Assembly: GCA_009746045.1 (NCBI GenBank)
Contig: RPFO01000790.1
Coordinates: forward strand, 1 to 64,000
Reading direction: 5' to 3'
DNA: 64,000 nt
From: Mesostigma viride
Taxonomy: Eukaryota; Streptophyta; Mesostigmatophyceae; Mesostigmatales; Mesostigmataceae
The position numbers and the translations under genes were made by a program. The notes under the pieces were generated by a model. That model was not told the origin of the DNA and made no database searches. It saw only the letters and a program-made list of their open reading frames with translations. Positions 1-19,088 of the stretch are shown here, piece by piece; the first letter of the stretch is position 1; each line of letters starts with the position of its first letter.

Positions 1-856
1 GGGATCAACTGAAGACACTCTCAAGCCACACTCACTGATCAGCTTCCTGCAGCGTGAGTCTCCAGATGATTGGCTCGACCTAGTCCTTCCAGGCCCTTCA
101 GAATAACCAGGAATTGTTTGATGCAGCTCCAGCTTCCAGATGGCAGGCCCTCAACACAGTAAGGCTCATCCTGCTTCCACACCCTCCTGGCCACTTCTGG
201 ATCAGATTTTAAAAAATGCCCTCTTGAAGTCCAGCAGCACTGATGACATAGCTGCTCCCCTGTTCAGCAACCCCACGTAAGACATAGCAAAATTCTCCAT
301 GTGTCGTGTAGCATCCCTGGCGTGTATAGCTCCTCTCCTGGCAGACTCCCCGTGCCGTGATACTCATTCAGGAGCCTGACATGGGCACTGATACCTCATC
401 CACAACCTTCCTCTTCAGCACCAAATCTCAAAGCAAGCTTCCTTGATGCTGGGGACGTCTGTCTGTTGGTGCAGCACACTCAAACTGCAACCACTCCTCC
501 AATGCCTTGGAGAAGGCGAGCTTCCAAGCCTCAAACAAAGTAGGCGAGCTCATCTCTTGGAACCAGCTGGTCATATGTCAAAGGAGAGTGATGTGGCAAG
601 GCAGCTCCTGTGAGTTATGCCCAATACTGCTGGGGTGCACACCAGCTGGAATCACCAAACTGGCCGCTGGGGGCACCTCCCTTCATCCCATTTTACACCC
701 TTGACCGGCTTGGCCCTGCACCTGACTGGAAATGTTGTCCTGAAATTTCTAGGGGAATCATCCCCAAGCCATCCTTCTCAGAGCTGTAGCTCTGATAGAA
801 ATCCCCAGATGCCCAGAAAATTCTGACCCAAAATCACAGGGCCATCATTAGTCCCT
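1..856 (-). pseudogene. Copia-like element B: protease tail and N-terminal reverse transcriptase, decayed
   Basis: Reading right to left, the segment starts with the protease C-terminal motif ILGQNFLG (about 800-856), then the NFRTT linker and the N-terminal part of a Copia-type RT (RVT_2 family). It is nearly collinear with the intact RT of element D at 55690-56463, but several one- or two-base indels break the frame, so it is a pseudogene. It is the continuation of element B, whose protease ends at 10224. The two parts were separated when element A (857-10223) inserted, and the frame can be followed across the junction from VLEE to the G-T-N-D-G-P residues. The element continues beyond base 1. 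Catalytic RT residues lie outside the window. Confidence 0.8.
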
Positions 857-1311
857 AGTTTAGATGAGATGCTTAGGCTGACACACGGATTTCCGGCCTG
901 CGCGCCGCGTATTGCCTACCGCGGCTGAGCGGGACACCTCAGTACAGTACGGCAGGGTGTACGGTACTGAGGTGTCATGTGGACCGATGTGCGGTTAGTG
1001 CCAGACTGTTCCTAGGTGCTAGCTCGACCCGCCAGGTCCGGTGTAGCCGGGCCTGACGGGCCGAGTCTTAGCTGGTGCTAGTGACGTGGTCGCATGGCAT
1101 TGCAGTGTACAGTTGTCCACTGGTCGTGTGCTGCAGGTAGCACCGCCATAGGCATATAGGCGTAGCACTGGGGAGTGCCACAGCACCCGAGTCTGCCCAG
1201 TTCCATTCTGAGCCCTCAGCTTTCCTTGCTCTCTCATTGTATTATTGTAATACAATCATCATTCGCTCTCAGCTTTCGCAGTTGTTCGTCGTCCCTAGTC
1301 TCCATCCAACT
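857..1311 (+). repeat. 5' LTR of element A
   Basis: This 455 bp sequence is repeated at 8880-10223. Its ends form an imperfect inverted repeat, AGTTTAGATG at the start and CATCCAACT at the end, rather than the usual TG...CA. Bases 1142-1146 (ACCGC) are the uninterrupted version of the site into which the 882 bp palindrome inserted in the 3' LTR. Confidence 0.88.
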
Positions 1312-1329
1312 TGGACTGAAAAGTTCGAT
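1312..1329 (+). promoter_or_regulatory. Primer-binding site of element A
   Basis: Directly after the LTR end AACT comes TGGACTGAAAAGTTCG. A primer-binding site that starts with TGG, complementary to a tRNA CCA end, immediately next to the LTR is the expected position. The primer tRNA was not identified. Confidence 0.5.
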
Positions 1330-1356
1330 ATTTTTTTTACAAGCAAAAAAAAAGAT

Positions 1357-2884
1357 ATGGCTTCCAACAACGGCAACAACGGCAACAACAACAAGGGGAA
1401 GGCGCCTGCCAGGCGCACCTCACCCCGCCTTTCGCCGGAGGGCACGCCCTCCACCACCGATGCGAGGGTGACGCCCAACGTCCCTTCCGCACGGTGGTCG
1501 CTGACCAACCCAGGCGTCGGGGCCCGCAGGTGGGGCCCGGCGCCCGGGGGATGGCGAGCGGGCGGCCGTTTGCCACTGGCGGTTCGTCCGCCATGGCACC
1601 TGGGGGGCAGGTCCCCCGGGCACGACGTTCCCCGTCGCAGGTGACGGGGGTCGTGAGCGGAGTGATTCCTCCGAGGAGGATGGCGAGGTGCCGCCTGCGA
1701 GGCCTCGGCCTTCGCTTGAGCTTTCGTCGCAGACACCTGCGACGTCTGGCAACCTTTCCGTGGGCCGACAGATGGCCACCATGGACATTGACCGGTATGG
1801 GGAACATGTTCCGCCCCCGGTCATGTTCGGGCGCCCACCCCATTTTCTCCCCCTTGGGGAGGACGACATCCCGGCGTTCATTGCGGTGAACGGCCGGATC
1901 TTGCCCAACGTTTTCAGTTGCTTCCAGATGAGCAGATACACGCGATAGAGGTTCATCGGGTGCACGCTGATCGAGGGGCGTCTTAGGATGCAGATCCCAC
2001 TGGTTCAGGTGGCGGTTTGCTCTGTTTCGCCAATCGGCCGAGGCACAACCCCGGCACTGTTGATCAGTGGGCGTCCAGGCAGCGCCAGAGAGAGGCGCTG
2101 CGCGTGGTCTCCAGACCAGAGATCGCGCTGACTCCGTTGCCGTGGCCCCAAGTCACGCCAGTTGGCTGGGGCCCGGATAGGCGTGAGGCGGCTGCGATGC
2201 CGCCTGCGACGGGGCGGGGCGGCAGACGCCCCAACACGCCCATGGGTGGTGAAGCCACCCAGGACCCTCTGGCAGGTCAGAGGGTCCAACCTCAGCCGCA
2301 GGCTCCCCCGCCCAGCGTGGGGGGCCAGGTGGCTGAGGAGGCCACCGGGGTCGCAGGGACCCCGGCGGCGACACAAGCGCCCGGGGTCGCAGGGACCCCG
2401 GCAGCGACGCCGGCGCCTCCGGCGCTGGCGGGGGATGCAGCCCCCATGGAGGGTGTCACGGGCACCTCCAGCGGCTCTGGGGGGCAGGCCCCCTCTAGTC
2501 CGCAACAAGGACAAGTCCCTGGCAGGGCCGGAGGGGCCCAGGGTCCCACCGCAGCTGGGCAGCAACCAGCACTGCTGGAGGGCGACCTGCAAGGTCGCGA
2601 CTTCATCACCCTGGGATGAGGCCGTGTGGCGTGCCATACAGACAGCCACAGCCTCCTTCCGTGGGCTGGCCGACAGGAGCCAGCAGATGCACGTCGCGGA
2701 GGCGGGCAGCCTGGTGTGTGCAATCATCACGCACATCCTGGGCCTGCCCAACCTCCAAGAGGGCACACGTAGGGTGTGCGACGACCTGCTGCCTGCCCTG
2801 CAGGCTCTCCTCTCAGGGAGGAGGGTGCAGGGCAGCAGGGTGCGTCTGGTGCGTTTGCTGGAGCTCCTACAAACGCCATCCTGA
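1357..2884 (+). pseudogene. Element A upstream ORF (ORF0-like), frameshifted
   Basis: The leader starts at ATG 1357 with an Asn/Gly-rich stretch (MASNNGNNGNNN), then passes through several frames. A Ser/Glu-rich part followed by DIDRYGEHVPPP lies around 1660-1920. Two further open frames, 2017-2619 and about 2616-2884, join to give a Pro/Ala/Gln-rich region and then a helical segment (LLEGDLQGRDF... and DEAVWRAIQTATASF). A separate ORF at the same place exists in element B (20379-21299) and perhaps C. I see no known domain and cannot say whether it is a separate protein or an N-terminal Gag extension. Confidence 0.45.
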
Positions 2885-3048
2885 GAGGGGCGGGTAGGTG
2901 GCTAACTCTGCCTACCTGGTTGCATCATGATCTTACTAACCCTACTGACGATGAAGTGTCCCTCTCTCCCACCTTCCATGATTGGGAGGAGGCCCGCAGC
3001 AGGAGGCGGGAAGTGACACACACTCACACCCCCACCAGCCCCACCCCT

Positions 3049-4011
3049 ATGTTGTCTAACCCTCCTACACAGCCCATGTTTGCCCATCCTGCTCAGCTCA
3101 CTCAAGTAGCACTTCCCTCTCAGCAGGTCTCTCCTGTGAATGCTGCAGCAGCAACACCATCTTCTCCCTCTCCCCCTGCATCCCCCTCTAGGTTGCCCAC
3201 TTACAATGAAAACCGTCCTGTGGATAGGATTAATGTCAGGGGGCTGCCTGAGGGGTATACTAGGGAGCAGGGGAATCATGCACTTCTCTCTCTGCAGCTG
3301 GCTAGGGAGGAACTGAATGTCAAGAATTGGTTTGGATCTCTCATGCAGGGGGATTTTTACCATCAGTCCTCTTCTCAGATTCAGAATCTCATTCTTGTCT
3401 TCCAGCGTAGGTATCCCAAGTGGCAGGACACGCAGGCTAGGGCAGTTTGGGAGGCTTTCATGAAGGAGCTAACTGACCTCCTCTCCACCCCCTCATCTGT
3501 GGACATCTATGGGGCATTCAGGTGGGTAGAGGAATACAGGGTCACATCAGTGGACTATGTGGCTGAGACAAAGAAATATGAGCTAGCCATCAAAGCACGT
3601 CCTGATGTCCAGCAGCTAGATCACAAGTTCTTGCTGCGTTCCTTCCTTGAGAAACTCAAACTTGACAAAAACACCTACGCCATGCTTGCAACAGGAATGG
3701 CAAAGTACTGGGAGGACATGAAGGAGGCATTGGATTATATCAAGCTGGCCTTGGCTCCCCTTAGCCAGGGGGCCATGGGCACCTCTGTAAAGAGGGTCAG
3801 GGGGGAAGAGAGGGAGGAGGAGGATAGGGAGAGGGAAGACAGGAGCAAGAGACCTGTCACTATGGCAGAAGTCAAGTCCCTGCTGGGACAAATGTTTAAG
3901 GGCAAGGGCAAGGGCAAGGGCAAGGGCAAGGGCAGGGGCTGGGGCAAGGGCAAGGGTAAGGGGCAGTCTCCCTCCAAGGGGGGCAGCTCCAGCAACAACA
4001 ACAACAACAGT

Positions 4012-4076
<65 letters not shown>

Positions 4077-5688
4077 GAAGCAGGACAAGGAGGACAAGTC
4101 TTCTCAGCGGTGCACCCGCTGTGGCATGAAGTACCACCTGCGGCCCACCTGCCGCAAGAACGTGGACGAGCTGGGGCATTTGGACGTCCTGTGCCACAAG
4201 TGCCACGGGCCGCCCCACGGTGACCCCAAGGACTGCAAGCGGCCTCCTTACGGCAAGAAGTGTGAGTCTCCCTCTCATGCTGGCTTGAGTGTGCCTGCTT
4301 CACCTCTTTCTGCATGCCCCACTGTCAGAGCAGTGAGCAGTTCTGGAAAGGTGCTACAGCTGGTTTCAGAAGATTATGTCTCTAAACCAACCTTCACATC
4401 TATGGTTCCCAAGGTGTGCAGAGTGTCCCCAGCAGAGGATGCTCAGATCAGTTTTCAGGAGCTTGCTTTGCAGTTGCATTTCCTTTATGGGCATGAAGTG
4501 AGTGCAGAGGTGGTGGCAGCAGCAATAGGGGGGGCAGCACTCAGACGTGCATGCCAGGTGGTCAGATCCCACTGCCAGCATTGTCAGTTCAATGCACCCA
4601 AACCCCCTAAGTGGCATGTAGCTACCCCACCTAAGAGCAAGGGCAGGGTGGTAGGAGATGTCTTTCATATCAAAGGACAATCTTACTTGGCACTTAAAGA
4701 TGCATGGTCAAGGTACACAACCATTGAACCATTACCTGGAATGGACAAGACACAGTTGCTCAGGGCTCTCTTGATTGCTCAGGCCAGGTACTACCCTGTG
4801 GAGGCATTGTTACTGGATCAGCAGTTCACATGTCTTGCCAATGAACCAGGGTGTGAGGCTATTGATCTGGCTGGGCTAGAAGATCATGAGAGGCAAGGCA
4901 TTATTGAAAGGGCCATCAGGTCCATTAAAACCCTTGTAGCCAAAGAAGATGGCAATCTGCTGGCTGACAGTGGGTCCTATGCTGACAGAGCTCTGTGGTC
5001 CACCAGGTTGTGCCAAGTCCTCAACAGGAGGCCACTCATGAAAACCCCACAAGGGGTGGTCATTACACCAGATGGATTGCATGCAGGCATTTATCCACCT
5101 GAGGTACTAGCCCTCTACAACGCACAGCGAGCACAGACAGCTAGCAGGTTAGCTGTCAAGGATGCAAAGCATCCACGTCCCACCTTCAGAGAAGGGGATC
5201 AGGTCCTATTCTACAAGGAGTCGGGACTAGGCAAGGTGGGTACCTGGCATGGGCCAGCCACCATCCTAAAGTTTAACACCACTGGCAGGACAGTGTTAGT
5301 TAAACACAATGACACGGGAAAAATTCACAGGTGTTCACCTCACAGGATGAAATTGTATTTTCCAACTGTGTCAGACGTGGCAGAGGAGGAAGAGCTGTTG
5401 GCCGACAGCCCTGTACAGTTGCCTGGCATCCCAGCGTTGCCCAGTGAGTGGTTGTTTGGAACACCCACTGGTGAGTGTGAGAGCCACACCCACTGTGACA
5501 CCCAGGTCACCCTTGATGATTGCAGGCAGTCACTGCAGGATTGGCCCCCTGCAGCAGAGGGTCACATTGGCAAAACAGGTGATCAGCAACCTATCACCTA
5601 CTTCAAGTGTGAACATAGCTCAGCCACTAGCTGCACCTTCCAAACGCAGCCTAGCAGACGCTGTTCGCATTTTACAAGCAGCTCATAG
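3049..5688 (+). CDS. Element A Gag-integrase polyprotein
   Basis: The open frame extends from about 2887; the first ATG is at 3049. The N-terminal half is Gag: a helical capsid-like part, a Lys-Gly repeat (3898-3960), a poly-Asn tract encoded by (AAC)n (about 3994-4074) and two zinc knuckles, CTRCGMKYHLRPTC and CHKCHGPPHGDPKDC. The integrase follows with an HHCC-type finger (HFLYGH...CQHCQ, about 4477-4590) and the catalytic triad D (GDVFHIKG), D (LLLDQQF) and E (HERQGIIERA, about 4885-4915). The C-terminal part has a Copia-like barrel (WHGPATIL). There is no room for a protease between zinc knuckles and integrase; the protease lies downstream in another frame. The frame ends at a stop at 5686-5688. 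Confidence 0.82.
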
Positions 5689-5990
5689 AGCCAAAGCTCA
5701 AACTGCTGCAGGATCAGCTAAGGTGGGGAAGGTTGGGCAGAATGACAATAGCCCATTTATGGTTGCAGTGGACACACAAGCCCAGGTCAGCATTATCAGT
5801 GCCCTGGCTGTGCCCCATTTGCCTTTGGAACCTTCACCCTGGCACCATGTGGCTGATTTCTCAGGGCAGTCATCCCTCAAGGTATTAGGTCAGGTCATGT
5901 TGACTATACTCGGTATCCCCACTCCTTTTCAGGTCTTGGAAGGTAATAAAAATTGCTTGTTGGGGATCCTTTTCTCTGTTACCCTGGTGT
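5655..5990 (+). pseudogene. Element A retropepsin-like protease, frameshifted
   Basis: In the frame after the Gag-integrase stop, SLADAVRILQAAHRAKAQ precedes MVAVDTQAQVSIIS, a retropepsin active-site strand with DTQ where DTG or DSG is usual. Then come a flap-like FSGQSSLKVLGQV and the C-terminal ...LLG. The same block occurs in elements B and C, always downstream of integrase. A one-base shift at the GGGG run near 5963-5966 moves the frame into the following RT segment. This is probably an indel. Confidence 0.65.
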
Positions 5991-6396
5991 CCTCATCTCC
6001 AGTGATAGACTATCCATCCAGGACATGGGTGGTGTTGATCTGAATCATTTCAAAATTTCTCTTGAAAAACTTCTTAACACCAACATTGCTTCTGTAAAAT
6101 TTGCTACACCCAAGTATGCCCCAGGGCAAGAACCCTGTGTGGCAGACCTGGTTCACAACCAAAAACTTCATCCCAACTCATTTGGATTGGGCAAGCATGA
6201 TGTGGCTAAAATGTCTCCTCTTTCTTATGAACAGATAGAGCAAGACTGTCGCACACACATAGGATTCCTAAAATGGGTGGAGGCCTTTAACAAGGCCAGG
6301 GAAGAATGGGTAGTGCCAGATCCTCTTAGTCCTTCTCATACTCCCCTGTCACACCTATTGACAAAAAGCCTGCAGGGTGCAAGCACTTGCGCCTGA
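5953..6396 (+). pseudogene. Element A protease end and RT N-terminal segment
   Basis: After the one-base shift at about 5965 the frame gives GDPFLCYPG, equivalent to the LLGQNFLC motif in C. It continues through NHFKISLEKLLN, the RT-proximal linker (ADLVHNQKLHPNS, compare SLVIPAVLHPSS in D) and the EAFNKAREEW segment of RVT_2 proteins. It ends at a stop at 6394-6396, and the RT resumes in another frame at 6458. Confidence 0.65.
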
Positions 6397-6457
6397 AGTT
6401 TGTGTGTAAACATAAGCCAGCAGCAGATGGGTCAGTCATTTTCATGCTAGACCTTGT

Positions 6458-7762
6458 GTGACAGAGTTCAAGGGCACCACTGATCTGACAGAGGCAGAGT
6501 TGTACACGCCAGGCATTCAGCAAACATCCCTAAAAATCTTGCTGTCTGTCTTTGTGGGTCATCTCAATGATGGGGATGATTATGTATGTAAGGCTACAGA
6601 CATTAAAAGGGCTTTCCTGAAAGGCTCACCTGAGATAGCACAACAAGTGTGGCATGGTCAGGTGTATGTAGTCTCCACTCCCAGAGTTTGGGCAAAACAC
6701 ATCCCTCAGCAGTACCTGAAAGCTAACATAGGTGTTGAAGGGCTGCAATCAGCTCCTCGCATTTTCAGGATGTCAGCTCAGGCTGTGTTTGAAAAGCTAG
6801 GGGCTAGATATGATGACATAGACCCTTGCTTCTTTGTGGTCCCACACCCTCATGGCATTCTCACCTTTGTGTGGCATGGGGATGATCAGCTGATTGCTGG
6901 GCCAAGGCGTGCTGTGGATGATTTTATTCAACAAGTGTCACAGCATTTTGAGATTGGCAAGCAAGTAGAGCTGGGCACCACTGCCATAAAATTTTGTGGC
7001 ACAATGTTACAACTCCAGCAGCATCAAAACCAGTGGGTGTGTGCACTCTACTCTCCCAATGATTACATGCACAGCTGCTTGGAGGTTTTGCAAACAAAAA
7101 TCAAACCTGGAGCCTGTCCTACCATTAGAGGCAAGCTGGGGTGGTTGTGCTCAACGTGTGCACCTCACCTGGCTGTGGTTAGCAGAGTTGATGATGATGT
7201 CTTGATGCAAGTAGGTCACAAAGCCATCACCAAAACTCTCCAGGAAGGCCCTCCCCTTATCTTGCACTCCTTGGATCTCCACAAAACCATTCACATCCAA
7301 GCTATGATGGATAGTTCCATGGAGTCCAGGCAGATTACCAAGTTGCAGGCAAGGGAGTCAGGCTTGTATTTTGTGCAGAATGATGATGCACCCTTGTCTC
7401 TCATTTCATGGTACAGCCGGTTGCATAGACGCAAGGCTGTCAGCAGCAATGCTGCTGAGTGCAGGGCAGTGGTGTCAGCAGTGCTTCATGCCAGGTACTT
7501 GAATCATGTGCTGGTTTGGTTGCAGATGCAAGCAGGCAGCAATGCTGGGGTGGTGGCACACTTGCTCACTGACAGTCAGTCAGTCCTCAGTTTCCTTGCT
7601 AACCCCTATGCTGTCCACACTGATCTTGACTGGGTGGTCCTGAAACAGGAGTCCACCTACTGGGAGTCCACCCGTCACGTGGAGGACAAACACAACGCTG
7701 CTGATGCACTCACTAAAGTGCCTCAGCAGGCAGCTGAACAATACAGCTGTTGTACCACTTGA
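6458..7762 (+). pseudogene. Element A Copia-type reverse transcriptase-RNase H
   Basis: This 434-residue frame carries ELYTPG, the first catalytic aspartate in DIKRAFLKG, the palm motif as WHGDDQLIAG (Copia usually has YVDD), and then RNase H with AMMDSSMESRQITK, SSNAAECRAV, LLTDSQSV and the C-terminal NAADALTK. The arrangement is that of RVT_2 plus the Ty1/copia RNase H. It lacks its own N-terminus, which lies in another frame at 5953-6396, so the copy is unlikely to be active. The stop is at 7760-7762 and the 3' UTR follows. Confidence 0.85.
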
Positions 7763-8879
7763 TGAACCCCTATGGCAAGCAGGCAACCCTGCCCCATAGG
7801 GGGGACGCCTAGCAGGGTCCTGTTCACCAGGGCCGCCTAGGTCACCCAGTACCCCTTGGGCAGGTCCAAGGGGTAGGTTGTGGCTTCCAGCAAGGGGGGT
7901 TGGTTGGAGTCTGTTTTTCATACATCTGCGTGCCCTATGCCCAATAAAATCTGTTTTGATTTTTTCAACACCATGGAATTTCGTTATGCACACCTTCATA
8001 GGTGGGCATGGGATGTATCTCACACCTTTTTCACTAGGGCGTATGCCTTGGTGGATTGGCCTTGAGCTCAGTGGCTCAGGTGCCCCCATTCAAGTGGAGG
8101 GTCAAAGCTCCCTTGACAGGTGGTTACCCAGGACCCCAGTTCACTGTGGATATCCTGGGCCACCTGGCCTTACTGTTCAGTGGCAGTAAAGGCATGGGTG
8201 CTGTCATGTTGTCTAGTACAACGTGCTCAGCACAGGTGCAGGATGAAATATTCCTGTCACCTGTCACCAGGACTTCAGTCACCCATGTGCAGGGCAGGGG
8301 TGGCTGGTCTCACACGTTGTGCAGGTGCAACGTGGCCAGGTCCAGGATGTCATAGTCCTGTCACCTGTCACTCGGACTTCAGCCCCCTCTGTGCAGGGCA
8401 GGGGTGGCTGGTCCTCACATGTTGTGCAGGTACAACATGGACAGTGCAGGGTGCAATAAACCTGTCCACTGTCACTCCTCAGGTTGCAGGTAACCTGAGC
8501 TCAGTTGACCCAGCCTGGCTGGGTATTTTCTCTCTGAGTGGGCGATGATGATGGAACAACATGGAACCTCTTAAACGGTTACCTTGGCATTTTTTTTACA
8601 ATGGCTCTCTTGGCTGGTGATGCACTCCCTGGATAGGCAGACAGGCATAGCTATCTCCCTTGTGAGCTCGCGAGGAGGAGGAACTCCCCGGGCATGTTGA
8701 GCTAAACGTGATGCCATCACAAGTATTGCACGAGTTCTGGGGCCCATCTTTTTCAGTCCAGATGTTGCAGTATGGGTGTCAGTTGCTCAGCACCTCAGTC
8801 AGCTTGGAGTCAGTCTCCTAGCTGGGCAGGGTCAGGCTTGAAGTCGCTAGCCTTCAACCTGAAAGGAAAACATAATGGG
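7763..8879 (+). other. Element A 3' UTR with tandem repeats and polypurine tract
   Basis: No coding sequence is visible. Between about 8256 and 8470 a unit of about 115 bp occurs about twice, recognisable from GTGCAGGGCAGGGGTGGCTG at both copies, followed by short inverted motifs (GTTGTGCAGGTGCAACGTGG). The purine-rich GAAAGGAAAACATAATGGG at 8861-8879 lies directly before the 3' LTR and is the likely polypurine tract. Confidence 0.6.
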
Positions 8880-9168
8880 AGTTAGATGAGATGCTTAGGC
8901 TGACACACGGATTTCCGGCCTGCGCGCCGCGTATTGCCTACCGCGGCTGAGCGGGACACCTCAGTACAGTACGGCAGGGTGTACGGTACTGAGGTGTCAT
9001 GTGGACCGATGTGCGGTTAGTGCCAGACTGTGCCTAGACTCTAGCTCGACCCGCCAGACCCGGGTTATCCGGTTCTGGACGGGCCGAGTGTAGTTGATGC
9101 TAGTGACGTGGTCGCATGGCATTGCAGTGTACAGTTGTCCACTGGTTGTGTGCTGCAGGGAGCACCGC

Positions 9169-9374
9169 AGTTACGTTAAATAGTGCCGGAACCTTTTGCC
9201 GCCTGAGGCAAATCGGGCCGGAACACTATTTTGCCCGGAATAACCACTTCCGAGCACCCAAGTTAATTCGGCCGAATTAACTTGGGTGCTCGGAAGTGGT
9301 TATTCCGGGCAAAATAGTGTTCCGGCCCGATTTGCCTCAGGCGGCAAAAGGTTCCGGCACTATTTAACGTAACT
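9169..9374. repeat. 206 bp perfect palindrome, copy 1
   Basis: Two 103 bp arms meet between 9271 and 9272 (TTCGG|CCGAA) with no loop and no mismatch that I can find. Each arm contains a further small inverted motif (GCCGCCTGAGGC). Diagnostic bases are GTGCCGG and CGGGCCGG. Confidence 0.92.
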
Positions 9375-9506
9375 AAAACCTGGCCTCGTGGAGGGGGGAC
9401 GAAGAGCCCGAGACATCCGCCTAGGCCGCTGAGCACGCACCACTAAATGCGCCGGAGCTGCCTCAGTGAGGATTCGAACCCCTGACCTCCAAGTTGCACA
9501 GGTTTT
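9375..9506 (-). repeat. 132 bp spacer 1 (reverse complement of spacer 2)
   Basis: It is identical to spacer 2 in opposite orientation. Read on the minus strand it contains GGTTCGAATCC, the consensus tRNA T-loop/B-box, preceded by GGAGGTCAGG. Its ends, AAAACCTG and CAGGTTTT, are themselves inverted. Confidence 0.8.
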
Positions 9507-9712
9507 AGTTACGTTAAATAGTGCCGGAACCTTTTGCCGCCTGAGGCAAATCGGGCCGGAACACTATTTTGCCCGGAATAACCACTTCCGAGCACCCAAG
9601 TTAATTCGGCCGAATTAACTTGGGTGCTCGGAAGTGGTTATTCCGGGCAAAATAGTGTTACGGACCGATTTGCCTCAGGCGGCAAAAGGTTCCGGCACTA
9701 TTTAACGTAACT
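9507..9712. repeat. 206 bp palindrome, copy 2 (mosaic)
   Basis: This is the central copy. The left arm is of copy 1 type, while the inner part of the right arm (GTTACGGACCG) is of copy 3 type. This gives two mismatched pairs and looks like a recombinant or gene-converted palindrome. Confidence 0.88.
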
Positions 9713-9844
9713 AAAACCTGTGCAACTTGGAGGTCAGGGGTTCGAATCCTCACTGAGGCAGCTCCGGCGCATTTAGTGGTGCGTGCTCAGCGGCCTAGGC
9801 GGATGTCTCGGGCTCTTCGTCCCCCCTCCACGAGGCCAGGTTTT
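9713..9844 (+). repeat. 132 bp spacer 2 with a tRNA-like T-arm
   Basis: GGAGGTCAGG followed by GGTTCGAATCC at about 9735-9755 fits the variable loop and T-arm of a tRNA; ACTGAGGCA then resembles an acceptor 3' strand. A weak A-box-like stretch (GTGCTCAGCGGCCTAGGCGG) follows about 30 bp downstream, which is the reverse of normal order. The T-stem has a mismatch and I could not fold a full cloverleaf, so this is a tRNA-derived or permuted-tRNA-like fragment at best. Confidence 0.4.
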
Positions 9845-10050
9845 AGTTACGTTAAATAGTGACGGAACCTTTTGCCGCCTGAGGCAAATCGGTCCGTAAC
9901 ACTATTTTGCCCGGAATAACCACTTCCGAGCACCCAAGTTAATTCGGCCGAATTAACTTGGGTGCTCGGAAGTGGTTATTCCGGGCAAAATAGTGTTACG
10001 GACCGATTTGCCTCAGGCGGCAAAAGGTTCCGTCACTATTTAACGTAACT
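9845..10050. repeat. 206 bp perfect palindrome, copy 3
   Basis: It has perfect 103 bp arms like copy 1, with the variant bases GTGACGG and CGGTCCGT in both arms. The compensating changes on both arms mean the palindromes are being homogenised arm to arm. Confidence 0.9.
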
Positions 10051-10223
10051 ACCGCCATAGGCATATAGGCGTAGCACTGGGGAGTGCCGCAGCACCCGAG
10101 TTTGCCCAGACGTTCCATTCTGAGCCCTCAGCTTCCTTTGCTCTCTCATTGTATTATTGTAATACAATCATCATTCGCTTTCAGCTTCAGCAGTTGTTCG
10201 TCGTCCCTAGTCTCCATCCAACT

Positions 10224-10871
10224 CCTCTAGGACAAGGAAGGTCACATCCACACCCATGACAGGGGCAGTAACCTCTCCCAACACCCTTAGATGCGTCCTA
10301 CCACTGAAATCAGACACCCAGGGGCAACTTGGTTCTCCGACCAGCAGTTCTCCTGTATGCTGAGGTCCCATGACAGAAACCTGTGCATTGGTATCTATCT
10401 CCATGGCAGCTACCTCAGGTTCATCCAACTGGACAAGCTTGGACACCTTAGGCTCCTTCTTGGCTCTTTGCAAAGCCTGTACAATATCTGATAGACGCAC
10501 ACCCCTAGGCCTGGTGTCGGGCCGTTCCGGAGGTGCAGCCTGTCCGCCTGCTTGCCCAACCACCGTATGTGAAGGTACCCCAGGGGCCGGGCCAGGGTCA
10601 CCCTGAGGGCTCGATACAGCTGTAGCACCCTGATCAGGAAGCTCCACGTCACCCCCGCCTTGTACACCAGCGGGCACCTGGAAGAGGTCTCCTTGATTAC
10701 CTCCCCGGGGACGGATCTTTGACCAGGACAGACGGTGCACTGCTTGGGAACCATCAATGGCCACCCAGCACTTATGGCCAGCGGCTTCTACTCGGGTCAC
10801 CACCCCATCATGCCAGCTGCCACGTTTCCCTGGAAAGCTTGGTTCCTTCCACACAACAACCTGTTGTCCGT
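10224..10871 (-). pseudogene. Element B integrase C-terminus and protease
   Basis: On the minus strand, GQQVVVWKEPSFPGKRGSW is the integrase C-terminal barrel (compare GQKVLAWKEPSLYGKRGSW in element C). A Pro/Gly-rich linker and SDIVQALQRAKKEPKVSKL follow. Then comes the retropepsin-like MEIDTNAQVSVMG, the flap region FSGRTHLRVLGEV and FLVLEE at the left end, where element A is inserted. The right end abuts the LTR of the non-autonomous element at 10872, and the integrase core resumes at 17966. The active site reads DTN. Confidence 0.75.
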
Positions 10872-11570
10872 AGTTAAAGCGCAATGTGTAGGGATAGATA
10901 GATTCCAATGCGCGCGGATAGATTCATCATGAGAATGGTTGGAATGGAGCTTGGTTAAAAATATAGGCTTACAGCACTCGTGCACGTGAGTGCTTAGACA
11001 CAAGTTTGCCAAGTCAAGGCAACACCAGTGAGGCGGGCTCGCAAGAGATCTAACCAGTTGGCACTGGCCTATTCTTTATATACTTGTGCACTGTGCTTTG
11101 CTAGGCCTGAGCAGCCTCGTAGGCCTGCTCAGTATTAACACCCCCGGTACAGTATTAACAACCTGTACAGCGTCCAGATCCTATACAGTAGGTCTGCCAT
11201 ACAGGCACAGTGACCACAGAGTACAGTCCACAGTGATTATTGCGTCTGCACCCAATAGTCCAGGACTAAGCCTGCGGTACCAACAGACCACAGGTTAAGG
11301 TTCCTATTTCCTGCGTACGACGTATTAATCCAATACCGTCGTAGGTTCAGCACCTAATTCCTGTCAGCCCAGGAATTACTGTCGACCCCATATGTCGTCG
11401 GCACATATTCACGCACGACTTAGAAGAACAGCCGGCTCGCGCTCGCGCACGACCGGGAAGTCGGAACACCATAACTTTCTTGATACTTGTCGGAATGAAC
11501 TCGTTCCGGTGCCGCTGGAATCGCAGAGATATGCCGAATCAGGATCACGCCACTGCGCTTGGCGTTAACT
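10872..11570 (-). repeat. 3' LTR of the non-autonomous element
   Basis: This 699 bp LTR is the twin of 17267-17965. Read on the minus strand it starts AGTTAACGCC and ends TTTAACT. A TATA-box-like TATATAAAG lies on the minus strand around 11070-11080. The adjacent AAGAAAAGAAAGGATTGG (minus strand, just right of 11570) is the likely polypurine tract. Confidence 0.88.
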
Positions 11571-12330
11571 CCAATCCTTTCTTTTCTTGAGCTGTAGCAG
11601 CTCACACAAGTCTACATACAAACACACACAATGGGTACTGGACATCCTCCCCGACTACAAGTCACAACCCACTGGGCATGACAGTCAGCTTGGATTCCTG
11701 GACATCCTCCCCGACTACAAGTCACAACCCACTGGGCATGACAGTCAGCTTGGATTCCTTATTATATGTACATAGCACCCATACTGGTTCAGGAGCACAA
11801 ACAAATTACAATGAGTCCCTATCCCTTCCTGGGAGGCTCGTTGTGTTACCCATGTACAAGAGGTTGGCCAACTGTGGCAGCCCATAGGTGTTCAGTGAAG
11901 AACTTGAGAAGTATGTACAACCTTCAGGACCTTAGGCGAAACCCCACAGATCACCCACAACAGCTCATCAGAAAACATTGCTGACCCCCAGACGGGAGTC
12001 GGCGCCGGTCTGCTGCCCCTTATCGAACCAGACACAACATCTACGCGAAGCACATGCAAAACCACAAGCTCCTATATACTCATTCCAACCGTGGAAAATC
12101 AGGGGACCTGTCGCCACCTCACCAGCATGGTGGATGGGTCAGCCAGTCCGTGAAACTCCGCCTTAAGACGGCACCAGGGAATCGAACCCCGCCCACAAAC
12201 CACAAATCTGGGGAAACCTCAGACTGAGATGAAAACCCCAGATAGACATCTCTCCATCAGAGACAATGTCAGACATTCCCACACCAGAGACATGTCTCAC
12301 CCCTCAAGGTGTGCTCAGGATTATGTACAA
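11571..12330 (-). other. 3' UTR of the non-autonomous element
   Basis: It is collinear with the 3' UTR of element D (53983-54727). A 60 bp segment is tandemly duplicated (about 11639-11698 and 11699-11758) and single in D. It contains the conserved T-arm-like motif AATCGAACCCC at 12180-12190. No gene is visible. Confidence 0.6.
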
Positions 12331-12840
12331 TCAAGCTCCCAGCCTGATATCCAGAGACTTAAGCTCCAGCACTAACTCCTTTATGTACAAGCTGGACTGG
12401 ATCCCCTCACATATGGCCCTGCACTCTGCCACATCCGAACTGATACAGACCCTCTTCTGCAGTCTGCTGTACCAGCTGAACAAACTTGCCCTGCTCTGAT
12501 AGAAAGCAAACAGAGCAGCAGATCTCCCCCTGACCTTAGTGACCTGGCGAGCATCCATGGAACTGTCAACAAAGATCTCCAAGGTGTTAGGCTGGGCAAA
12601 GTCAATCCCAGACAAAATCAGATCAGGGGTACTCTCCACCAACTGGGCTATGACGATCGAGGCTTCTCATCCTTAGCACCTCATCAGGCATTCTGCTGTG
12701 CATCATCAATGATAGGGCCCACAGGTGGCAGCTAACAAACCACGCCCACATGCCTCTCAACTTGGGACATGTCGTGATAAGCACTAACATCTCTAGTGGC
12801 AAGGACCAAGGGATACATATCTGAAGCAAATCCAGCAAAC
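12331..12840 (-). pseudogene. Copia-like RT end and RNase H fragment in the non-autonomous element
   Basis: Minus-strand matches to element D include LRGMWAWF, MVHSRMPDEVL-like residues, FVDSSMDARQVTKVRGRSAA, SWYSRLQKRVCISSDVAE and the Glu-Cys-Arg-Ala-Ile RNase H motif. The frame is broken around 12640, and the C-terminal part beyond LVLEL is missing. It is a relic of the autonomous ancestor. Confidence 0.75.
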
Positions 12841-14465
12841 AACGTAATGTTATTCTTAGGCTAGATCGTCCAGATCCCCTCTCGTCGGTCCTTCAGCCTG
12901 CCACATATGCCCTTATCCAGAGCACAGATCAACCCTCACATACAAACTGTACATGTCAGGCTGAAACTCATTCAGGAACAACCATACTGATAACCATGAA
13001 GCAACCATCATTGCAGGGTACACATAAGCATCAGATGATAGAGGCACTGAGAAGAAAACCCCACCCAGGCTGAATAAGGCACCACACCGTGGAGCCAACC
13101 TTGGGCTACCTCGTGCACAGATCCATATCACATCTGACAGTGTAACACCCCGAGGTCAAACATCAGTAAGGTTTTTCAGTCCCTGAAACATGTCCTCAGA
13201 CCAGCCAACTCCCATATCACCCTGGGAGAAACCAAATCCATGGTTTTACAGCAAAACAGTCGTGGACAGAGTAAATCATCCCAAGACCAGCCAACTCCAT
13301 AATGAGGAGACAACCAAACTATGTGGTTTCACAGCATCACATCTGGGATCAATCATAACTTCCAGGCCAGCCAACTCCAAACTAGGAGAAACCAAATCCT
13401 ATGGTTTTATAGCAACACACCTGGGAACCATCACAACTTCCATATGCTGATTGTCATACAGCAATCAATCTGAACATGCACAGGCCAGGGACAGGGTCAA
13501 CTGGAATCACACATCCATCATCAGCAACTCACGTATGCAGATGCTGATCTGTATATACCCTCCACAGTCGGCCTTCAGCATTCAGCAGGTTTCAGATTGC
13601 TCTTGAAGCATCCTCTGCAGGCTCCATAGTCCCGGACCTTGTAGACTGGAAATTTTCTTCAGGAAGCTTGTGCCAACCCTTCAAACATAATCTGGTTTCT
13701 GCTCCATCTGGTAGCCAACTTTAAACATGCTGCACTGTTCAAACTTTTTTTTTTTCTTTTTGAGGACATAATACTTCCCCAAAGCAGCATGGTTGCTACA
13801 AGAAACCATATATGTAAGCAACTGCCAAAACGGGAGACCAATATAAATCTGGCACTCAGCCATGTATGTATCCCCTGGCAACACTCAGGTAGTGACCTCG
13901 TGCCACTCTGACAGCCTGAACTCAACAGGAAAATCTGGATCCACTTGACAATATTATTATAGCCCCCTCAGGACACTGGTCTGCATCTCTGGAAACTGGA
14001 ATCTCTGGAACTCTGGAACTCTTGAATTCTGGAAATCTGGAAATCTGGATTTCTGGTTCATCGATCACCTTCAAGCTCGACAGGTATCACTGGGCAGCTG
14101 AAGCTGACAGCATCTCAGGTTCACTTGCAGACACAGAACTCTGGACCCAGCAACACTCCAACGTACCACATTGGAGAATCCAGGATTAGGAACCCCCTTG
14201 CAACAGACCCTGCAGGTCTTGTACATAGTATGGGGGAACACTATTATGGATAAACTGTAAATACAGGAGTGATATTGCAGAATATACCATGAACACTGCT
14301 TGGATCGATGAGGAGCAATGCTGCCAACGGTTATATTTTCTGGCAACCTGCCAGTGCATATCGGGTATCATCAGTTTTCCATTAACACTGGAAAGTTAGG
14401 GTTTATTAACCAACTGTTAATTTTCCCCTAAGGCATGTTGAGGCCCTTTCCACGTGTGTCCCAAC
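12841..14465. other. Non-coding interior with tandem repeats
   Basis: No gene is supported. Three imperfect copies of a roughly 85 bp unit occur at about 13190-13445, each with CCAGCCAACTCC followed by GAGAAACCAAATCC or similar and GGTTTTA-CAGCA. A CTGGAAA/CTGGAAT-type simple repeat lies at about 13980-14060. Confidence 0.5.
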
Positions 14466-14870
14466 ACAAAGCTAGACACCCAGGGGCAACCTGGTTCACC
14501 GACCAGCAGTTCTCCTGTATGCTGACCAAGATCCCATGTCATGAGACCTGAGCATTGGTATCCACTTTAATGTTAGCAGCCTCAGGACGTAGCACCTGGA
14601 TGAGCATGCTAGCCATCTTGGCACCGTCTTGTGCTTTGCCTAGCCAAGACCACAACATTAAAATCTCTCTGGGAATCCTCCCAACGCAGTTATAGGCGCA
14701 CACCCGATCAGGCCTGGTGTTTGGCCGATCAATCCAGGGGTGCAGCCTGCCTGTCTGCTTGCCCAACCACCGTATATGAAGGTACCCCAGGGGCCTGGCC
14801 AGGGTCACCCTGGGGCCTCGATACAGCTGTAGCAAACTGATCCTCTGCATTACACCTGCAGCTGGCAAAG
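14466..14870 (-). pseudogene. Protease-region fragment in the non-autonomous element
   Basis: This segment is homologous to element B at about 10305-10630. On the minus strand it retains KVDTNAQVS, the same DTN active-site variant, and the linker that follows integrase in B. It is frameshifted and truncated. Confidence 0.6.
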
Positions 14871-17266
14871 CTCAGGTACCCAGGTATAACTGACTCCCAT
14901 CAGCTTACCTGTCCTTGAATGGCTGATCACAGAACAGGCATATTATTGCTAAGGTGATGTTTCCAAAACCACTCAAAGCATTTATGGCCAACTGGTTTCC
15001 ACCTGGCTCACCACGCCAAGCCCAGCTGCCTAAACCTTGAAAATCAGATGCAAATGCTTGACTTCAGATTGTTGGCACAAATCAAAACATCAAACCGAAC
15101 ACTTGTTAGACCCTTCCCACACTTCAATCCAGAAGAGGTACTTCCTGGGTCTCGATCACTAATTACACACCAGCACATGGTGGTAACGGCCAACCGCGAG
15201 GCCCTTATCCACACCCTTATACAACTGTAATAAGGGTGCCCTTCCCTGTCATGCACTAGACCAGGGGCATTCTGCACAATGCTGTGAGTTGCCCACCCTC
15301 ACACATCAATACAGAGATCACATGGGAGCTCAACCTGACCCTGTGCAAACAGGCCAGTCACCAACAACCGTCAAATTATTGCAGTAATTTTGGAAACACA
15401 TTCAGCATCTGATCCCCCAGTGTGTTCATGCTTCAAGGAATAGCAACACCATGCTAGACCGAGCCTGGGGCTGTCCCTCACATATCCCTTAACAGGAATG
15501 ATGTACTCAACACCCGCTCGGGGACACACTCAACATACAAGCGGTGGAGAAAACGGCATGTTACTTGGCCCTCAAGCCCCTTCACACGCAGAACAGCACA
15601 ACTGTGCTTCGGCTACTGCATACATGACCCAGAAACAGCACGTCTTCAGCGAGACCTCCGGCTATGGGAACCCTTCAGCTCTCGCCTTATACGCTATCTG
15701 GCTACCCCCGACCAACAAAACCATCCCTGCCTGCCAGCCGCTGACTCAGGAAATGCTGACCTTGTAGGAGCTGCCTGCCAGTCACGTACACGCGCGCCAA
15801 CTAATAATGGACGCACCATCCATTAATTCCTTGCAAACTCCACGAGTTCTGCAATCACGGCCTAAATGCCATGATTCTCATAGCGCCATACCACATATAG
15901 CAGTGGAATGCTGAGAGCAAATATGCAATTAACTGCAACCTGCAGCCATCATTTGCCATCGCTCTACATACTCTAGATCTGCCGCCTGCGACATACCCGG
16001 TCGCTCGCGACATACCCAGTCGCCTGCGGCACACCCAGTCGCTCGCGACATACCCAGTCGCCTGCGACTCGCGCCAGCATACTCGCGTCTCGCCCGGTCG
16101 CCTGTGACATTCTAGTCGCCCCGCGATACTCCGCCTGGCCATCCGCTCTTCTTGCTGCCGTCTCTCGCCGCAGTCGATGCCCGACGTCCTCGCGTCGCAG
16201 CAATGCAATCATCACGTCGCGCAGCACTGCCATTATTAATTACAACAACACCGCCGACCTTGCCGCTTGTCGACACCGTCACCCGCGACTCGGAAAATTG
16301 ACCAGGAACAACTTCTCCTCGCTGCTCCCCAGATGCCGACGCTCTCTCGTCGCATTCGACACAACTTCACCCTCTAGCTGCCGACACGCCCACACCAGCG
16401 CCGTTCACAATCGCTCATCAAGCGGTATAAAGAGAACTCGACAGCAATCTGCAGCTTTGCAATATAAATCTGGAAAGATTGACGATGGATAACTCCACAC
16501 CGCTCAAACTGCAACCTTGCAGATGACGCCTCGCGTAGCTCCTCGAGCTCGCGACCAGCACAGCTCGCAGCTATGTCGACTACATGCGCGAAAACTCGCC
16601 AGCATACTCGACAGTCAACACCAGCCGAGCTTGTCGTAGCCAACACTGCAGCAACATGCTTGACCGCCACCCATGGCAGCGAAACGCCTTCGCTTGACGA
16701 CAAATCTCGAACGCTTGAAACTCGTAGCTTCACTCAGCTGCAAAGCATAGCCATGCCGCAAATTAAACCGGAACGCAACCAATGATCTCGACTCGATCCA
16801 TGCCGAACCGCATGCGCAGTTGACTCTTGATAAATCTGGATAACTCGATCCATTAAAACACAGCAACCCACAAGGATCACTAAAAGCCGATTCCGCAACA
16901 TCTTGTCATCAGGAAATGCGAAACAGCCAGGAGCGCTCGTCAACACGTAGCAGGCCAGCAACGAAACTCATTCGTCGCCAATAACGTGCCCGCAATCTGG
17001 ATAGCTCAGGAAACCTTCACGCAGCCAATCCAGCTAGTCCTGGCGTACAAACGCCCACCAACAACCTGCAAGATAAACTTAGCCTCGGCCGTCGTTGGGA
17101 ACTCAACCATTCCCGGAACGCATCATAAACCGATAATCTGCTACGCCCTTCTATCCGCTAGCCTCGATTCCGTGAGTATCCGCAGCAGTCCAGCGCAGGA
17201 TTAAACTCGACGATGAAGCCCAGGCAGTAAACCGCCTTGATGGAACCGGAACATCGTTGTAATTTG
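14871..17266. other. 5' part of the non-autonomous element, no coding support
   Basis: I see no recognisable protein. A short tandem array around 15985-16110 alternates CATACCCAGTCGCCTGCG-like and CTCGCGACATACCC-like units. Next to the LTR the minus-strand sequence AACTCAAATTACAAC (about 17256-17270) equals the priming region of element B. Confidence 0.45.
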
Positions 17267-17965
17267 AGTTAAAGCGCAATGTGTAGGGATAGATAGATTC
17301 CAATGCGCGCGGATAGATTCATCATGAGAATGGTTGGAATGGAGCTTGGTTAAAAATATAGGCTTACAGCACTCGTGCACGTGAGTGCTTAGACACAAGT
17401 TTGCCAAGTCAAGGCAACACCAGTGAGGCGGGCTCGCAAGAGATCTAACCAGTTGGCACTGGCCTATTCTTTATATACTTGTGCACTGTGCTTTGCTAGG
17501 CCTGAGCAGCCTCGTAGGCCTGCTCAGTATTAACACCCCCGGTACAGTATTAACAACCTGTACAGCGTCCAGATCCTATACAGTAGGTCTGCCATACAGG
17601 CACAGTGACCACAGAGTACAGTCCACAGTGATTATTGCGTCTGCACCCAATAGTCCAGGACTAAGCCTGCGGTACCAACAGACCACAGGTTAAGGTTCCT
17701 ATTTCCTGCGTACGACGTATTAATCCAATACCGTCGTAGGTTCAGCACCTAATTCCTGTCAGCCCAGGAATTACTGTCGACCCCATATGTCGTCGGCACA
17801 TATTCACGCACGACTTAGAAGAACAGCCGGCTCGCGCTCGCGCACGACCGGGAAGTCGGAACACCATAACTTTCTTGATACTTGTCGGAATGAACTCGTT
17901 CCGGTGCCGCTGGAATCGCAGAGATATGCCGAATCAGGATCACGCCACTGCGCTTGGCGTTAACT
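17267..17965 (-). repeat. 5' LTR of the non-autonomous element
   Basis: This 699 bp sequence appears identical to 10872-11570. Its right end abuts the integrase of element B in mid-gene, so it is an insertion boundary and not the LTR of B. Confidence 0.88.
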
Positions 17966-19055
17966 CAACGTTAGGCTCTAGGACACTCCAGCCCTTGTCT
18001 TTCTGCCTCAGCTTGAGGAACTTGGCCTCTAGCTTCTCCTTCCATGCCTGCTCAGCATCAGCTGGCAGCATCCTGGTATGCAGCATAAGAGGATTGATGG
18101 CAATGTCACCAAAGAACATGGGAGTCCTCAGGTTCAGCCTATCCTCCACAGAACGTAGCCATGCAGATGTCACAATGGCAGATGACGTCCTTGGAATCCT
18201 CTCCACCAGCAGCACAGTCTTGATCTCTTGGATGGCTCTCTCCACCACCCCTTGCTGGCCGTGGCTCTCCCTGGGTGTAATCAGCAACTCTGGAAACTCT
18301 GGCAGGTTCTCACAGCACTCAAACTGAATGTCACACTGCAACAACTCCAACCCAGGGTACCTGCTCCTTGTCAACTTCAGAGCAGCAATCAATGTAGGCT
18401 TCTCCATGTCAGGCAGGATCTCTAGGGTCTTGTACTTGGTATATCTGTCCACTGCCACCAGCAGCTTCAAACCCCTGATTCTCTGAATATCTACCTGCAC
18501 ATGGCCTGGCTGCAAAATAGGAGTCCTGGCATGAGACTGCTTGGGCTTTCTAGCAACTAGCCTGCACTTGCAAGCTTGAGCAACCTGTTGGCAGATGGAG
18601 TACAACTCACTTCCTCCCAGCCGTCTAGCAACTTGCAAAGACTGAGCTGCATGGCCAAACATGGTATGCAACCTTGAGGCAATGTCATACAAGAGAGAAA
18701 ACCTTTTATTGTCATTATTAGCACTCAAGGTATGTACAGATCCCTTATGTACAGGAGGCACCAGGGTCGTGCCTGTCAGACTGTCTCCAGCCCTATCCTC
18801 ATCCTGACCATCCTGTGCCAGTCCTGCACGGTCAGAATGCTTCTGAGATCCACCTGGGTCCACATCACCAGGTCCTACCTCAGGCTCAGCACCGCCATGG
18901 CGGGCACGTTGGCGAGTAACCACTGCAGCTACAGCTGGCATACTCTCTGTGGTAACCAAGCTTGCCCCATCGTGTCCAATAGGCTCTTTCACTAGAGCAT
19001 GGGGCTGCCCCTCACTGCTGTCACTAGCAGCTTCATTACACACCCCTGGGGGCAC
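17966..19055 (-). pseudogene. Element B integrase core (5' part)
   Basis: The frame opens at 19055. A low-complexity N-terminus precedes LHTMFGHAA...CQQVAQACKCRL (HHCC-like finger). Next come the catalytic DIQRIRG, the second D in LLQCDIQFE and the glutamate in ESHGQQGVVERAIQEIK, then the C-terminal PLMLHTRMLPAD and VLEPNV, where the LTR of the non-autonomous element interrupts at 17965. The rest is at 10224-10871. There is no protease between gag (ending 19089) and this integrase. Confidence 0.82.
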
Positions 19056-19088
19056 CCTCCAGGGTTCAGGGATGTGTGCAGGCTCAAG

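Follow-up and report, generated by a model that had tools for sequence, protein, structure and literature searches.

Galileo and Tm1 are reportedly foldback/MITE DNA transposons with long inverted repeats and a foldback structure. AAV-type termini carry a palindrome with smaller hairpins at both ends, and their dimers share a central palindrome, features which recur in the element described here in its terminal palindromes with smaller hairpins and its central palindrome. Large perfect palindromes are normally unstable in genomes. Other related systems are of the LTR type. TRIMp3 elements (Helenus, Ajax, Cassandra), as far as the available part of PMC10886601 describes them, resemble the present element in being short and non-autonomous, in containing pol III-type sequence, in the 5-bp TSD of fungal and plant Helenus and in their presumed mobilisation by LTR retrotransposons. 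Arrays of the biv-TRIM type likewise show a repeat-internal-repeat plan of variable length without an unambiguous canonical PBS, and TRIM terminal repeats can differ after recombination (available part of PMC6934838). Plant retrozymes are also small, non-autonomous and LTR-type, according to the portion of PMC11722881 available.

Architecture of the palindrome and its target site

The window, that is the whole stretch of 64,000 nucleotides of Mesostigma viride DNA analysed, contains an 882-bp palindrome composed of three copies of a 206-bp loopless palindrome (P, with an arm of 103 bp) and two spacers in the order P-S-P-s-P. The features of the palindrome and of its host, the Copia-like element A, are as follows.

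857-1311, plus strand: 5' LTR of element A, AGTTTAGATG...CCATCCAACT
1142-1146, no strand: empty target site ACCGC in the 5' LTR of element A
8880-10223, plus strand: 3' LTR of element A, AGTTAGATG...CCATCCAACT, broken by the palindrome, then CCTCT
9164-9168, no strand: left TSD copy ACCGC (empty site at 1142-1146)
9169-9374, no strand: P1, terminal palindrome, 206 bp, outer end AGTTACG
9375-9506, plus strand: spacer S, 132 bp, AAAACCTG...CAGGTTTT, with its B box on the minus strand
9507-9712, no strand: P2, middle palindrome, 206 bp, arm haplotypes CGG/CTT at sites 18/49/53
9713-9844, minus strand: spacer s, inverted exact copy of S
9845-10050, no strand: P3, terminal palindrome, 206 bp, haplotype ATT/ATT, outer end CGTAACT
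10051-10055, no strand: right TSD copy ACCGC

The initial annotation had described three 206-bp palindromes and two mutually inverted 132-bp spacers forming one palindrome with about eight mismatched pairs and flanks of ACCGC, and this architecture was found to be exact to the base. Mismatches were counted in 8 of the 441 pairs (element positions 18, 49, 53, 154, 158, 189, 387 and 391), the spacers are exact reverse complements (0/132 differences), and of the individual palindromes P1 and P3 contain no mismatched pair (0/103 each) and P2 contains two. An inverted repeat of 441 bp without a spacer is far above chance expectation. No second copy of the palindrome was detected in the window with BLAST, the best matches being of 12-14 bp.

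Within the 5' LTR of element A, the flanks of the palindrome were found to be continuous over a single ACCGC (1101-1146 corresponding to 9123-9168, and 1142-1190 to 10051-10099). This alignment agrees with the earlier proposals that the site is empty in this LTR and that the palindrome was inserted after element A, whose other LTR has the site empty. A second contig (C197), which is probably the other haplotype or a redundant contig, matches the window at 99.6% over 9.9 kb (L036) and 98.6% over 9.7 kb (L037) and also carries the insertion, with 0/882 differences. On this contig element A has CCTCT at both outer flanks as a 5-bp TSD, while in the window its outer flanks are unmatched (TCCCT on the left versus CCTCT on the right). 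The LTRs of element A have the ends AGTTAG...CCATCCAACT (final letters CAACT); TGGACTG, which is PBS-like, follows the 5' LTR, and the 3' LTR is preceded by a purine-rich tract, GAAAGGAAAACATAATGGG. A match to a Copia-type reverse transcriptase scored 29.6 bits, just below the Pfam cut-off of 31.6, and the Copia-like ORF had two relatives at E <= 1e-20, both from Prorocentrum lima in EukProt (72% and 64% identity over half of the query).

Further observations were made on LTR elements. One stretch of the 5' LTR of element A on C197 was 100% identical to the 3' LTR of the window, the window 5' LTR being about 94% identical, which suggests gene conversion between the LTRs of element A (C197 compared with window positions 1-19589). 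Contig C113 (L028, L038) harbours another copy of element A with two more insertions of family 1, the family of the window palindrome, at different sites, one of them in an LTR. A second LTR family in the window (element B) has LTR ends AGTTAA...TTAACT (AGTTAAAG...GCGTTAACT); its two 699-bp LTRs (10872-11570 and 17267-17965) are 100% identical, making the element with this LTR pair very young, and no matching TSD was found for it in the window. Two 1.4-kb stretches (54777-56128 and 58073-59425) with 67% identity are possibly related regions of two retroelements.

Genomic copies and families of the element

The 103-bp arm and S were searched against the genome (439.9 Mb, 2243 contigs), with the best 40 of 492 and the best 40 of 1140 first-look candidates scored, respectively, these totals not being confirmed copy numbers. 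All scored candidates were 100% identical in both searches, and the samples are biased toward young copies. The loci surrounding the arm hits were retrieved, as were 30 loci around S hits. A perfect 5-bp TSD beside the ends AGTTA...TAACT was found in 30 of the 31 full-length family-1 copies examined (20/20 arm-found and 10/11 S-found), the exception being L050. This count leaves out the window insertion itself (L026), repeat loci of one place, loci on contig C1103 that duplicate those on C1447, and L048, whose array runs to the edge of the retrieved piece. L042 and L043 have common flanks and may be one duplicated site; their TSD, GCACC, recurs at L020. A further complete copy (L010, TSD GCCAT) has lost most of one arm. 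TSDs were also present at single P-S-P units (L018, L031, L068), which show the TRIM feature of two terminal repeats around a short internal domain at a size of at most about 1.3 kb; terminal inverted repeats with a TSD of fixed length, a MITE/foldback feature, are present as well. The mean spacer difference between family-1 elements is 2.7/132, old-type spacers included, and the family is therefore young.

These copies bear out the earlier claim of a mobile element, and the check suggested for it, a search for other genomic copies with 5-bp TSDs of their own, was positive for family 1 as above, for family 2 (8/8) and for family 3 (2/2). The statement that the palindrome carries no gene was upheld for proteins, but pol III-type A and B boxes are present. 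The palindrome is a recently active gene-less mobile element. If a LINE had copied a SINE-like element and twin priming had produced the palindrome, the A and B boxes at the P/S junction would be accounted for, but the SINE features of a TSD variable in length and a 3' tail are absent, with a 5-bp TSD in 30/31 copies and both ends precise and identical; this explanation is disfavoured and very improbable.

At least three families with the same plan and 5-bp TSDs exist. Family 2, first seen in L025 as a copy located in a tandem repeat with TCCAT flanks, has a P of 212 bp and an S of 198 bp, giving a total of 1032 bp. Its TSD was found at all eight retrieved loci (L071 repeats the L025 site, and the TSD GTGGT occurs twice), and seven of these have the spacer order +-, where '+' denotes an S with its B box pointing left, away from the P on its right; the remaining one (L077) is a rearranged copy of 720 bp. 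Family 3 has a P of 206 bp with 0 mismatches and an S of 236 bp, as identified in the left half of L060, and its two pure loci are perfect 1090-bp palindromes (0/545 mismatched pairs) with the TSDs ACAGG and CTGTC. L060 itself is a chimera of family 3 (left half) and family 1 (right half) whose junction lies close to the midpoint of the middle P; as a whole, the chimera has its own TSD, GGAGG.

Over the aligned bases of gapped alignments, arm identities between families were 79.6% (families 1 and 2), 80.2% (1 and 3) and 91.4% (2 and 3), compared to highest shuffled values of 76.2, 79.3 and 80.5. For the spacers the corresponding identities were 84.7%, 77.1% and 74.3%, with highest shuffled values of 82.5, 82.3 and 79.3. 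Since the arms exceed their shuffles and the spacers are little or no better than theirs, the arms are related between families and the spacers mostly not.

Palindromes are prone to assembly error, and an inverted duplication stemming from the assembler, or from template switches during sequencing, could be suspected. Against such an artefact stand the many loci with different TSDs, the empty-site comparison, the occurrence of three families and varied arrays, and the presence of the same copy on two contigs, making this explanation extremely improbable.

Some loci showed further rearrangement. On contig C1447, and again on C1103, two large arrays of family 1 (L050 and L052) are separated by about 3 kb; one of them lacks a TSD and is bounded by inverted flanks (ccacacgc ... 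gcgtgtgg), and the whole looks like a larger rearrangement. L020, L023, L024 and L038 have lost part of the middle P (one arm or its centre), as expected of hairpin-prone DNA. The family-1 element at L022:763-6349, with ACATC on both flanks, is interrupted by two inserts, namely a piece containing a YADD-bearing LINE-like ORF (no Pfam match) and ending in (TTAA)n, and a TTAA-flanked transposon with an 817-aa ORF matching Pfam PF20700 and a PHD finger, both at TTAA or nearby inside P's. A search with an exact 20-base pattern gave 0 matches in viral_contigs and two in bacterial genomes, the latter being taken as chance.

Spacer order, conserved motifs and arm haplotypes

Intact family-1 P's between two spacers were found to be divergent (+P-) in 23 cases, convergent in 2 and same-direction in 20. 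Among the 41 listed hits for each of the other families, those adjacent within 600 bp were divergent in 11 cases with 0 convergent and 0 same-direction (family 2), and divergent in 9 with 0 convergent and 3 same-direction (family 3). Exceptions in family 1 are L055 (--) and the disrupted L022 (-...+), with convergent junctions occurring within the large arrays of L025, L046 and L048. The whole-palindrome order is common and not obligatory; single units, ++-, +--, ++--- and larger arrays also have TSDs. Descent from a few master copies could contribute in part to the orientation bias, as copies of one master are not independent, yet the three families agree. An origin of the whole-element palindrome as an accident of palindromic P's flipping spacers is unlikely, because divergent order prevails in three families. 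Two mechanisms were considered and rejected for the order of the spacers: random spacer inversion via recombination between palindromic P's, as the main source, would give equal divergent and convergent numbers, and rolling-hairpin replication alone needs a strict + - + - order, with same-direction runs being common.

Several motifs are shared by the three families, and their positions around the middle P of the window are listed below.

9470-9480, minus strand: mirror B box
9530-9539, minus strand: mirror A-box-like motif, pointing left out of P2
9680-9689, plus strand: A-box-like CGGCAAAAGG (TGGCAAAAAGG in families 2 and 3), pointing right out of P2, placed by alignment
9739-9749, plus strand: B box GGTTCGAATCC, the same in three families
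9841-9844, plus strand: TTTT at the far end of s, candidate pol III terminator, also in families 2 and 3

Common to all three are the ends AGTTA...TAACT, the block AACCTTTTTGCC, which read outward is the A-box-like TGGCAAAAAGG (CGGCAAAAGG in family 1), and AACCACT, which in every arm occupies the loop of a small hairpin predicted there; two smaller hairpins are predicted per arm. The B box starts 27, 19 and 26 bases from the P boundary in families 1, 2 and 3, respectively, and the far end of the spacer on the B-box strand is GTTTT in 3/3 families. The A-box-like sequences and the B box are presumably pol III promoter motifs and, together with TTTT, form an apparent pol III promoter facing away from the middle P. 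The spacers gave better folds than shuffled sequences did (z -2.4 and -3.1). Covariance models matched the P/S junction of family 2 below cut-off (mascRNA 21.7 bits, cut-off 42.5; tRNA 17.4 bits, cut-off 29), while family 1 gave only a match to the tmRNA family (11.7 bits, cut-off 84) and no match to the tRNA family of Rfam. ARAGORN detected no tRNA in the window, nor was any Rfam family, hammerhead or other self-cleaving ribozymes included, found there at gathering score; matches of P to miRNA families fell below gathering scores and were dismissed as reflecting hairpin shape only. By eye, the P/S junction showed no TGG-type PBS (S starts AAAACCT/AAAACGT, or AAAACCT/AAGACCT on the other strand), and no PPT was seen before the 3' repeat, with spacers ending in GGTTTT, CGTTTT or GGTCTT on either strand.

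The arms carry linked variants at sites 18/49/53 (CGG, CTT or ATT), with the arms of a terminal P usually of one type and those of a middle P often of two. Mean arm mismatches were 1.96 for middle P's (n=27) versus 0.44 for terminal P's (n=43; p=6e-6) in arm-found copies, and 1.32 (n=19) versus 0.52 (n=23; p=0.013) in S-found copies. Across 236 arms, with counts inflated by linked sites, common variants were present on both arms in 89/109 cases for terminal and 60/119 for middle P's, and rare variants in 7/19 and 2/29, respectively. Terminal P's within one element may differ, as in the window (three outer-arm sites, CGG versus ATT) and in L018 (three), with the TSD intact. The P centre of family 2 is asymmetric; its polarity is fixed at most loci, where one terminal P mirrors the other, while the terminal P's of L075 are symmetric. 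In L076, also of family 2, both spacers share a deletion of one base and the three P's all carry a P-centre variant; the two spacers of L072 are of different types. Within one element, the left half resembles the right half slightly more than random halves resemble each other, both in family 1 (p=0.06, 10 elements; p=0.005 with L009, L013 and L029 excluded post hoc) and in family 2 (p=0.009, 7 elements).

These data also bear on whether the palindrome is a canonical TRIMp3 like Helenus, in which P would be an ordinary LTR, palindromic by chance, and the inverted spacers would result from later recombination. Its size, direct terminal repeats, 5-bp TSD and pol III-like boxes are compatible with this, and tandem LTR-internal-LTR arrays, differing terminal repeats and the lack of a clear PBS are known for TRIMs from the available part of PMC6934838. 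Secondary inversion, however, predicts equal numbers of convergent and divergent junctions, compared to the 2 and 43 observed over three families; furthermore, neither PBS nor PPT was found by eye, and an element with an intact TSD may have unlike terminal P's. This interpretation is therefore considered quite unlikely.

Proposed mechanism and relation to known systems

Usual LTR ends are TG...CA. The ends of P (AGTTA...TAACT) and the 5-bp TSD match the end letters and TSD length of element A (TSD on C197), from which we infer that an LTR integrase acts in trans. The favoured reading, at roughly even confidence, is that the palindrome is a non-autonomous TRIM-like element consisting of two half-units joined head to head and moved by a Copia-like integrase. 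P would serve as an LTR-like terminal repeat that is itself palindromic, and S as a short internal domain. Transcription would start from a putative pol III-type promoter spanning each P/S junction, with the A box situated in the arm, the B box in S and TTTT at the distal end of S, and would run away from the middle P; a half-unit of arm-S-terminal P would be copied, presumably by reverse transcription, with the same or different copies as sources. Two such half-units would then be joined head to head at their promoter ends to give P-S-P-s-P with a mosaic middle P, while terminal P's would be kept or rebuilt symmetric, perhaps via fold-back copying. The Copia-like integrase of the same genome may recognise the AGTTA...TAACT ends and leave the 5-bp TSD.

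The half-unit model fits the prevalence of divergent spacers, the mosaicism of middle P's, the existence of a chimera such as L060 and the changes common to the parts of L076; the sequences of L060, L076 and L072 are also consistent with half-units behaving as modules. It leaves unexplained how the P centre enters the copied molecule. A pol III transcript from just upstream of the A box could not be the sole template, because the middle of P is missing from such a transcript, and a whole-element RNA copy started at the A/B boxes was rejected, its expected transcript lacking the P centre. The idea that each terminal P is rebuilt from a single arm suits families 1 and 3 and conflicts with the fixed P-centre polarity of family 2, which argues against plain fold-back rebuilding of this kind; it is retained only as a candidate. 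Ordinary LTR replication would not give the differing terminal P's of the window and L018.

A foldback/MITE DNA transposon is a serious rival, although a somewhat unlikely one. Here the whole P-S-P-s-P would be moved as DNA by an unseen DDE transposase acting on AGTTA terminal inverted repeats with a 5-bp TSD, array variants would arise via unequal crossing-over, and the A/B boxes would be incidental or have another use. Terminal inverted repeats, fixed TSD length, absence of coding capacity and copies of many lengths are consistent with this, as are near-identical +- copies at different sites, including the two perfect 1090-bp palindromes, which could represent a master moved as DNA. By itself, however, it leaves the conserved promoter motifs and the divergent order in three families unexplained, and the end letters and TSD length are shared with the host LTR element A. 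Among the best 40 scored candidates of each search no coding element bearing such arms was seen, which counts weakly against the rival, and no mobilising protein for the palindromes was found there either.

Returning to the TRIM-like reading, its half-units might even define a distinct class of non-autonomous retroelement, with pol III-driven half-units, head-to-head joining via self-complementary promoter palindromes and a borrowed Copia-type integrase. This extension is doubtful; were it true, the genomic palindrome would be the direct product of a replication cycle.

Large perfect palindromes are a common form of young repeat here, in at least three families, and ordinary repeat finders could overlook such P-S-P-s-P elements or split them wrongly. 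The arm haplotypes and chimeras provide natural markers for the formation of inverted dimers during transposition and offer a test of the ability of an LTR integrase to mobilise a palindromic parasite of pol III type. The palindromes may also supply DNA that forms cruciforms and, possibly, long hairpin RNA that could enter silencing pathways.

No paper in the literature searched was recognised as describing the P-S-P-s-P architecture. The present palindromes differ from AAV-type termini in that no Rep-like gene was seen and the TSD is fixed at 5 bp, and from Galileo and Tm1 in having a TSD of 5 bp, palindromic modules that are repeated, and boxes of pol III type, with no transposase partner found among the scored candidates. 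Unlike retrozymes, as covered by the available part of PMC11722881, the window has no hammerhead at the Rfam cut-off and the order of units is inverted rather than direct. The arrays in the accessible part of PMC6934838 have a tandem order, in contrast to the inverted halves around a palindromic repeat seen here. In TRIMp3, to the extent described in that part of PMC10886601, the small-RNA-like sequence is part of the LTR and the two LTRs enclose PBS and PPT, whereas the elements of this study have a palindromic terminal repeat, boxes across the P/S junction and, usually, two inverted halves. As several tested TRIM features (PBS and PPT, as judged by eye, and identical terminal repeats) are lacking, the palindrome is not filed as a TRIM proper and is provisionally regarded as a variant of the non-autonomous LTR-type elements.
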